A stretch of 64,000 nt of DNA from Daphnia pulex. Lineage: Eukaryota > Arthropoda > Branchiopoda > Diplostraca > Daphniidae. Location: assembly GCF_021134715.1 (NCBI RefSeq), contig NC_060018.1, positions 5,659,501 through 5,723,500 of the forward strand, written 5' to 3'. Below are positions 38,608 to 41,600 of the stretch, piece after piece. Under the pieces are notes generated by a model. That model did not search any database. It saw only the letters and a program-made list of their open reading frames with translations, and had not been told where the DNA came from. Position numbers and translations under genes: made by a program. The number at the start of each line of letters is the position of its first letter. Position 1 is the first letter of the stretch.

Positions 38608-41600
38608 ATGGACGCCATCAAGAAGAAAATGCAGGCGATGAAAGCCGAGAAGGATAACGCGATGGATCGCGCCGATACTTGCGAACAGCAATCGCGAGAT
38701 GCCAACCTCCGCGCTGAAAAGGTTCAATCAAAAACATTTTTGCCGGATGAAAAAGAAATGACAACATTTGCGTCTCTCGTTCTATTCATGTTCCGTCGCC
38801 AATTGACCTCAATCAACGGGAAATGAATCATCCAGTCCGAGGAAGAGGTACGCGCTCTCCAGAAAAAGATGCAGCAGTTGGAGAATGACCTGGATCAGGC
38901 CCAGGAAAATCTTTTGGCCGCCAACTCCAAGCTGGAAGAGAAAGACAAAGCCCTCCAAACCGTGAGTTCTCTCTATTAAATACGTCTCTCTCCCGTTATC
39001 ACACAAGGAAATCTCACCCTGATGGAAGAGAAAAGGCCATTTGAACGAAAAAGAAAAAGGGGGAAACTAAAAAAGCTACCGGAATTTTGTCATTTTGTTC
39101 CTTTTGTGACGGACGGACGCCGCCGTCTGGGAGAATTCTTAACAGAGACAGAAGGAAGAGAGAAAGACATTAGAGGGAAAGAAAAGAAAAAACTTTCACT
39201 TTTGATTCATCTAGCGCGTTTCTTTTAACAACTTCTCCTCTACACTGACTCACCTTGGCCCGAAAAAACCAAAACAAAGATTTATTTTTCTTCTTCATCT
39301 TCTGTCTCTCCCCTTTACGCTGCAAGATCTCAATCGATGGGGTTTTCGTGTCGTTCCCATGCGGGATAAAGTTGTGTGTGTGCGACCCGTCCGCATACAG
39401 GCAATAGGGAAATGAGGACATGGAAAAAACATTCCTGACGTATTTTAGTCGAATTTTTCTGGACAAGGAAAGGATATGTGTACGGCGAAAAACCCAAAAC
39501 ATTATTATCGTCTCATTCCGGTGCATTTTTGCTGAAGCGCTAAACACGCTAAAAGAGGAGCGGCCAGCGCTAAAAGTAGACTGGGCTGCTCCAGTCACTC
39601 TCGTTTCTTTTTTCTTTTCTTTACGTTCCAAACTGCTTTTGCTCTGTTGGACGATCTTGGTTTCTCGGGCCTTATATGGGCCGCCGTACACGCCCGTCTG
39701 CTATACACACTGCGGCATATGTGCAAGACTTGACGTCAGCGGAAACTCAATGGCGTTAGATGGCGTTCGATTCACTTTTCGGGGATTCTATTCTTAGAAA
39801 TCATGTCCAAGTGTCGGGGGAAGGGGGGTTAGCTGCGCCCTAGAGCCTCTTGCCAGTGTTTTTCATCGTCCAATCGGTCGGGCGATGATGAAAGGCCGGA
39901 AAAAAAATCCACAAGAAGAAATAGTTTCTCGTCTAGTTTCATCGGCGCAAGATTGCCGTTGATCCGCTTTTTTCAAAATTGTTGCGTTTGGCGCGCCACC
40001 AGTCTGGTCGTTCAAGTTCATATTTCCTTCGACAGAGGGCGTTAATGTATCGCCCCGCATATTTTCAACCTGGTGTGCAACAGTGTCGTCTATCTGTTAT
40101 GTGTCTACGTGGCCGCTAGCTCCCAGTGTGTTTTGGTGGGAGGGTTATAGTTATACAGTAGAGAAAGAGAGAAACGGGAAAATTTCTTTTTCTTTTTTTC
40201 CGCCGGGGATTGGAGACGTCCCGAAAAAGTCGAAAATAGAGAAGGCAACTGCCGTCCGTTGGTGGTGGGGTCTAGTCCAACTTCCCCCCCAGCACAACAA
40301 CATCACCCACAACACACGTAACAGACGAAAAAGGCTGGCCTCGTGCTACAGCCCTCCCCCCTCCTTTCGAGAGTGTTAAGACGAAGTAAAAAAAAAAGAA
40401 AAAGAGAAAAGGAGAAAATTGGGCAACAGTTCAACAACTTTTTCCTACTAGTCGGGTGTTGTTACATTTGGTGGTGCTGCGCGGGCGTCTGTTTTCATAG
40501 ATTCACGACAACAACAACAACATACGACGACAACAACAAGAAAGTGTGTGATTGCAGAACATTCCGGCCATTTATCGAATCCATTTAGCGACTTTTAACA
40601 ACAGCAACAACAACAACAACCAAATATGCTGGTAGTAGTGGACAACAACATTGCGAGTGCTGCTGCCAACATGATGGATGGAACAGCTGAGGAACAGAAT
40701 CTGACGGGAGAATTATCAAGGAGCGACGCCCTGTCGACTCGTCCGTCAGTGGCCGTCTCGCGGGCCGTTCAACAACTTTTGGAGCGACACGGCCTGGCTG
40801 GCCGTCCTTCGACTGTTAATAACGGGAACGTGACGGTCGGAGCGTTCGTTCAAGTCAACAACAACAACAACAACACCAACTGTTTGTTGTTGCAACCTCC
40901 TGATGTCGCCGTCGGCGCCGGTGTCGAGTCAGAATCCGATTTGGACTCGGATTCCGAGCCGCGGTTCAGACCCGATCCGATCGGAGGCAACCGGCACAGC
41001 AACAGTCTCGATGCCGGCTGTCATCCGGCCATGATGGACGACGACCAGGTCGACTTGAACGGCAACAGCCAACAACAAGAGGAGCAGCAGCAGCAGCAGC
41101 AACAACAAGGAGCCGATGCTGAGACGGAAGAATTATCGAAATTACGATGTCAGAGCGTCCGGACGGAAGTGCTGGCGGAGAAATTCCGGCGTAAGAATCG
41201 ATGCGCCGATTACCCGGGATTCGGTTTCGCTTCGTCCGTTTTCAGTTCGGACACGATGATGAAATTCAACATAATCAAAAACGAATTGCACAATATCATG
41301 AATAATCAGCTTAAACGGGTTAGTCGATTTTTCAAAAAAACCCCACCGTGACTCTGCTCGTGTGTGTGGGTGGGTTTGATATCAATTCCCACTCACGATT
41401 CAAAACTCTCCCTACTCTCTTCTCTCTCCTGTGTAGTTGTTACATACAGTCGACAACACATTTGTAATCTTATCAAATTTTATGGCCCAACAGCCACGGA
41501 TATCCGCCCAATCACGACCTTTTCGTTCGGTTAGAAAATGACGAGACTCTGAAGACTGTCGACGTTTCTTAGTGCTGCCATTTCTCTCTCTCGCATTACA

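Follow-up and report, generated by a model that had tools for sequence, protein, structure and literature searches.

A single tropomyosin gene occupies 38.6 to 50.2 kb of the window, the stretch of 64,000 nucleotides of Daphnia pulex DNA that was analysed (C2:5659501-5723500 in the 133.19 Mb, 13-contig genome used for searches). In this gene exons 4, 5 and 7 come in two versions and the last exon in three, and between its muscle and cytoskeletal first exons lies a further first exon, referred to here as the head exon (Table 1).

Table 1. Exons of the tropomyosin gene and sub-regions of the head exon (window coordinates)
Feature	Position	Strand	Remarks
Muscle-type exons 1a and 2	38608..38955	+	Pfam Tropomyosin, one six-frame match with internal intron; outer ends approximate
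Head exon, alternative first coding exon of a Tm1-I/C-type isoform	40626..41318	+	231 codons, phase 0 end; open frame
Low-complexity, fast-evolving part, residues 1-165	40626..41120	+	poly-N, poly-Q, acidic
Conserved block 1, residues 169-202	41130..41231	+	LRC.S..TEV...R..YPG.AF; outside solved structure
Conserved block 2, residues 203-231	41232..41318	+	start of putative Khc-binding helix; 7bjs chain C match
Splice donor of head exon	41319..41324	+	GTTAGT
Cytoskeletal first exon	43161..43298	+	MSSQQGTLLDVLKKKMRQ...
Shared coiled-coil exon 3	44159..44292	+	in phase with head and cytoskeletal first exons
Alternative exon 4a	44945..45062	+	GT donor
Alternative exon 4b	45298..45415	+	version in P0004; GC donor GCAAGT at 45416
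Alternative exon 5a	45706..45776	+	version in P0004
Alternative exon 5b	46166..46236	+	
Exon 6	46479..46554	+	
Alternative exon 7a	46759..46821	+	version in P0004
Alternative exon 7b	47110..47172	+	version in P0005
Exon 8	47595..47664	+	
Alternative last exon 9a	48108..48191	+	...STLQDIQNM
Alternative last exon 9b	49072..49154	+	...TFSELSAY
Alternative last exon 9c	50161..50243	+	...TFVELAGY; version in P0004 and P0005

The head exon and its splicing

The head exon ends in the residues ...NNQLKR and joins in phase 0 to exon 3 at 44159, where CAG precedes GCTGAAGGAGAAG; from the head onward the junctions of the isoform keep phase. Splicing the head to exons 3, 4b, 5a, 6, 7a, 8 and 9c yields a protein identical at every residue to P0004, the D. 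pulex "tropomyosin-like isoform X1" of NCBI, itself a predicted gene model. The junction and this identity bear out the initial annotation, which had described a 231-codon exon with poly-N, poly-Q and acidic patches spliced in phase to the shared coiled coil. A second D. pulex head isoform, P0005, could not be reproduced by any of 12 exon combinations lacking 7b (best 426/435). Against the combination with 4a, 5b, 7a and 9c it shows nine residue differences, all of which fall in exon 7 and are explained by 7b. The GC donor of exon 4b, as opposed to the GT donor of 4a, may have a part in selecting one or the other version of exon 4. Reading through the introns after exons 3-8 revealed no tail convincingly specific to the head isoform.

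The exon encodes two regions of very different character. Residues 1-165 carry a net charge (K/R minus D/E) of -15, compared with +4 for residues 166-231. A long disordered N-terminal region is indicated by low complexity and by structure prediction, in which pLDDT is mostly below 50 over residues 1-165. The remaining 66 residues, 166-231, constitute the head module, within which two conserved blocks were read from alignments of 29 and 49 rows; block 2 follows the pattern S-x-F-x-S-x-T-x-MKF-x-x-I-x-NEL-x-N ... QLKR. Between D. pulex and D. magna the module is identical at 65 of 66 positions, whereas the preceding region is identical at 113 of 148, with 25 further gapped positions. For the end of the exon, which the initial annotation had described as conserved-looking, the peptide originally quoted was one residue too short.

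Two short motifs were observed in the N-terminal region. VSRAVQQLL, at about residues 42-54 and coinciding with a weakly predicted helix (43-54), is present in seven of the 296 proteins listed by the searches described below, namely five Daphnia proteins, P0002 and P0008. (K/R)RGHQHHPR is found near the N-terminus of many insect heads (152 of 296, for example P0009, P0029, P0103 and P0120), beetles and mosquitoes among them; it is a second conserved element, which the Daphnia head lacks.

Since the NCBI models are predictions, the head could in principle be an artefact, a chance open frame beside a tropomyosin gene. This is extremely improbable given the steep rise in identity to D. magna on entering the module, the match of the module to a solved Tm1 structure, and its presence in 45 species. 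At the level of sequence, the head exon is confirmed as real. A search of the genome for a second copy of the head returned one match only, the exon itself. A Pfam scan of the head alone gave no tropomyosin match; TERB2 appeared under its cut-off (E 0.11) and was taken as chance. Rfam had no match at gathering score between 38000 and 51000.

Relation to Drosophila Tm1-I/C and to kinesin-1

When the head was searched against the PDB, the best match was 7bjs chain C, Drosophila Tm1 (E 2.9e-9), followed by the Drosophila Tm1 chain of 7BJG (E 0.0019). The third match up to E 10, a Mediator subunit (E 8.1), falls on the poly-Q. Residues 203-231, directly before the exon junction, are identical to 7bjs chain C at 25 of 29 positions, and across the junction, over residues 203-284, identity to the solved atypical fly Tm1 (Tm1-I/C or aTm1) is 67/82. 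In 7BJS the fly helix packs against kinesin heavy chain (Khc). Structure prediction from the 29-row alignment gives one helix, 208-434, preceded by a region of low confidence with weak helices at 43-54, 151-172 and 177-190; the confident part of the model is thus a single long helix. With an offset of 50, obtained by equating 7bjs chain C with the fly construct 252-334, the predicted start at residue 208 corresponds to fly residue 258, where the modelled fly helix begins (PMC10948360).

The Daphnia isoform and Tm1-I/C (7BJS, 7BJG, 7BJN) belong to the same gene family and have in common the helix sequence at the exon boundary, a disordered first part and, by the inferred offset, the residue at which the helix begins. 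Orthology of the Daphnia head exon to the Tm1-I/C head is supported. The initial annotation had proposed this relationship, and agreement extends to the solved segment, the exon junction, the exon order in two further gene models and the head tree, the last two of which are considered below. A protein search that might have returned an unrelated family gave Tm1-I/C and its kin as best matches. The canonical arthropod tropomyosins share exons 3-9 with the head isoform, but begin with the exons at 38608 and 43161 instead of the head.

There are also differences from the fly protein. Fly Tm1-I/C has 441 residues, with the helix modelled to residue 386 (PMC10948360). By contrast, in the Daphnia isoform the junction is followed by 204 residues that make up a complete canonical coil with a canonical ending. 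The fly sequence used in this comparison covers about residues 253-363, and the C-terminal parts were otherwise compared by length and helix limits. Given the fully canonical coil in Daphnia, as against the 441-residue fly protein, a role on actin may persist alongside any role with kinesin. Furthermore, oskar, the cargo in the fly, is not expected as cargo in Daphnia.

The partner protein is likewise recognisable. The tail of Daphnia Khc, the exons of which carry the IAK motif, is identical to 7bjs chain A at 80 of 88 positions, and judged by this identity the aTm1-binding stretch of Khc is conserved in Daphnia. In the PDB two further kinesin-1 heavy chains, aligned over more of their length, outscore 7bjs chain A (8rhb, 193.9 bits; 9pmb, 193.6 bits; 7bjs chain A, 159.5 bits), so conservation of the Khc tail is not by itself a pointer to Tm1.

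Block 1 lies just outside the solved structure, since the construct solved from the fly starts only at about residue 252. In the fly system Tm1 1-335 inhibits Khc and changes the IAK region of the Khc tail, which Tm1 252-334 leaves unaltered (PMC10948360). Within the stretch missing from the shorter construct, arthropod-wide conservation in the present alignments falls on block 1, and we propose that it takes part in the inhibition of Khc. No construct isolating block 1 was found in the fly work consulted. Conservation also singles out residues 169-202, equivalent under the inferred offset to about 219-252 of the fly protein, as the segment to alter in the published in vitro motility assay.

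Occurrence across arthropods and possible separation from the coil

Three protein searches, from which the best 120 of 458, 653 and 278 matches were taken, listed 296 different proteins, and phmmer at E 1e-3 recognises the head in 287 of them; this proportion is not a frequency, since in two of the searches the score came from the head itself. In the search scored on the coil, from which canonical lengths were excluded, the head was present in 111 of 120 among the matches listed. The headless nine (P0121-P0124, P0127, P0129, P0134, P0137 and P0146) include nematode and snail proteins, as well as those of a bee, a mite and two ostracods. Two oddities were encountered among the head-bearing proteins. 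In P0001, a predicted protein of 681 residues from Aedes albopictus, the conserved head occurs twice, probably through a duplicated exon or an assembly fault. P0105 from Anopheles ziemanni, a head-bearing tropomyosin isoform, is labelled mediator subunit 1, probably a misnomer.

From the 287 proteins 49 were chosen for alignment, one for each of 45 species and four further proteins. By their usual classification, looked up for four of the species, these are 25 hexapods, 12 other pancrustaceans, one centipede and seven chelicerates. Outside Pancrustacea the module is found in a centipede, two mites, two spiders, a scorpion and ticks. Measured over 63-66 aligned positions, the lowest identity to D. 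pulex among these rows is 36/63, in P0225, and the highest 65/66, in D. magna; two ticks, a chigger mite and a phylloxerid stand at 39/66 each. The head tree has few columns, an unsettled bootstrap and many unresolved forks, but a split with support of 99/93 sets all seven chelicerates, together with P0225, apart from the remaining 41 rows. The arrangement of exons is also retained: models from the ostracod Darwinula and the chigger mite (P0125, P0126), which run exons together, present muscle exons, head, cytoskeletal exon and exon 3 in the same order as the window, while the centipede gene model has muscle exons, head and exon 3.

These observations are most simply read as vertical descent from the ancestor of arthropods. 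As chelicerates and a centipede have the head, and the tree splits chelicerates from mandibulates, that ancestor probably already possessed the module, which would then precede oskar. The earlier estimate, that a tropomyosin of this design is older than insects, was true but too modest. Arthropods arose in the Cambrian or earlier. The isoform sequence is already public under the plain NCBI name tropomyosin; its identity and age are new as far as could be found. No title on Tm1-I/C outside Drosophila appeared among the literature matches listed, and conservation within insects may already have been published.

In some of these proteins the coil that follows the head is decayed. The first 45 residues after the junction were compared in 21 of the 287 proteins. 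Fourteen ordinary isoforms are identical to Daphnia at 33-45 of these positions, whereas the other seven retain only 15-23/45 over exon 3: P0226 and P0236 from ticks, P0221 from the oribatid mite Oppia, and P0038, P0043, P0082 and P0107. These decayed-coil proteins possess the same head module and the same junction end, but have total lengths of only 207-294 residues. Four were scanned with Pfam Tropomyosin; P0226, P0221 and P0043 fell below the cut-off and P0107 above it. In the head tree, from which P0038 was left out, the ticks and Oppia fall in the chelicerate part, and P0043, P0082 and P0107 in the other part with weak placement. Muscle tropomyosin must persist in these animals, and the decayed-coil proteins are therefore probably separate genes. 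It looks as if in them the head module had left tropomyosin. Exon 3 forms part of the fly Khc-binding stretch, so that Khc binding may be lost or changed in these animals. What the module is capable of when no tropomyosin rod is attached could be learned from these decayed-coil proteins, as from a natural experiment.

These proteins also bear on two other views of the head. According to the first, the isoform is mainly an actin-binding tropomyosin and the head no more than a longer cap, substituting for the cytoskeletal exon at the start of the coil. P0004 does retain the full canonical coil and last exon, fly Tm1-I/C bound microfilaments in vitro (PMC5286366), and stress fibres are disturbed without it (PMC5603733). 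A mere cap, however, needs no 66-residue module conserved from Daphnia to ticks, and seven proteins keep the head with only 15-23/45 of exon 3, three of the four scanned falling below the Pfam cut-off; moreover, in fly egg chambers no accumulation of the isoform on actin is seen (PMC5286366). The cap is quite improbable as a complete account.

According to the second, the module is structural, the isoform building intermediate-filament-like polymers with kinesin binding secondary. Fly Tm1-I/C assembles into filament-like polymers, border-cell migration suffers when it is knocked down (PMC5603733), and the fly and Daphnia proteins share a disordered first part followed by a rod. Against this, assembly in the fly has been reported for the tail domain (PMC11121635), whereas P0004 ends as a canonical tropomyosin. 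In Daphnia it is the low-complexity part that evolves fast and the Khc-facing helix that is kept, and in the decayed-coil proteins most of the rod is gone. Such a role as the primary one is unlikely, if less so than the cap.

A probable kinesin-1 adaptor and the oskar question

The reading preferred here is that the head makes a tropomyosin into a kinesin-1 adaptor in Daphnia, and that this use is older than that for oskar; we put its probability at roughly 0.8. By analogy with 7BJS, one chain of the Daphnia head isoform would lie against the tail of the Khc dimer in antiparallel orientation. Block 1, which precedes the helix, would hold the Khc motor quiet until cargo is due, and the acidic, Q/N-rich first part may provide a loose tether for ribonucleoprotein assembly. 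The cargo would presumably not be oskar but messenger RNAs moved to microtubule plus ends in polarised cells, for which the fly follicle epithelium may serve as a model. In the fly, aTm1 recruits Khc to oskar (PMC5286366), and aTm1 with Khc also localises other, somatic RNAs basally in follicle cells (PMC9606379).

The origin of oskar itself has been dated to at least 400 Ma in a survey of 1,862 pancrustacean data sets, crustaceans included, with the gene present in 15 of 29 insect orders (PMC8662646). In a review, germ plasm is inferred to have arisen independently in Branchiopoda, and branchiopods whose germ cells derive from mesoderm are cited as well (PMC13120685). With oskar reported from insects and a separate origin inferred for branchiopod germ plasm, any germ-line role of the head isoform in Daphnia would be independent of oskar, and a somatic role is equally likely. 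Searching the Daphnia genome for the OSK domain (PF17182) gave no match, in a search that lacked a working control. The LOTUS domain (PF12872, OST-HTH) gave four matches (L011-L014), all at one locus (G000:C6:7251602-7253623). A match to the Staufen C-terminal domain (E 3e-5) lies at G000:C5:256022-256135; Staufen, another known partner of oskar transport, thus seems to be present.

A broader scheme can be drawn, for which the odds appear about even. The head module would have been a kinesin-1 regulator in the arthropod ancestor, in which block 2 docks on Khc and block 1 helps to switch it off in the service of general RNA transport in polarised cells, long before there was an oskar gene. Insects would later have put it to use for oskar. 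In ticks and an oribatid mite, and probably in certain mandibulates, it would have been freed from tropomyosin and persist as a small protein with the remains of a coil.

Tm1-I/C has so far been known from Drosophila. If the head is arthropod-wide, the transport of oskar would have come late to a kinesin-1 adaptor that is itself old, and the first task of that adaptor could then be sought in animals without oskar.
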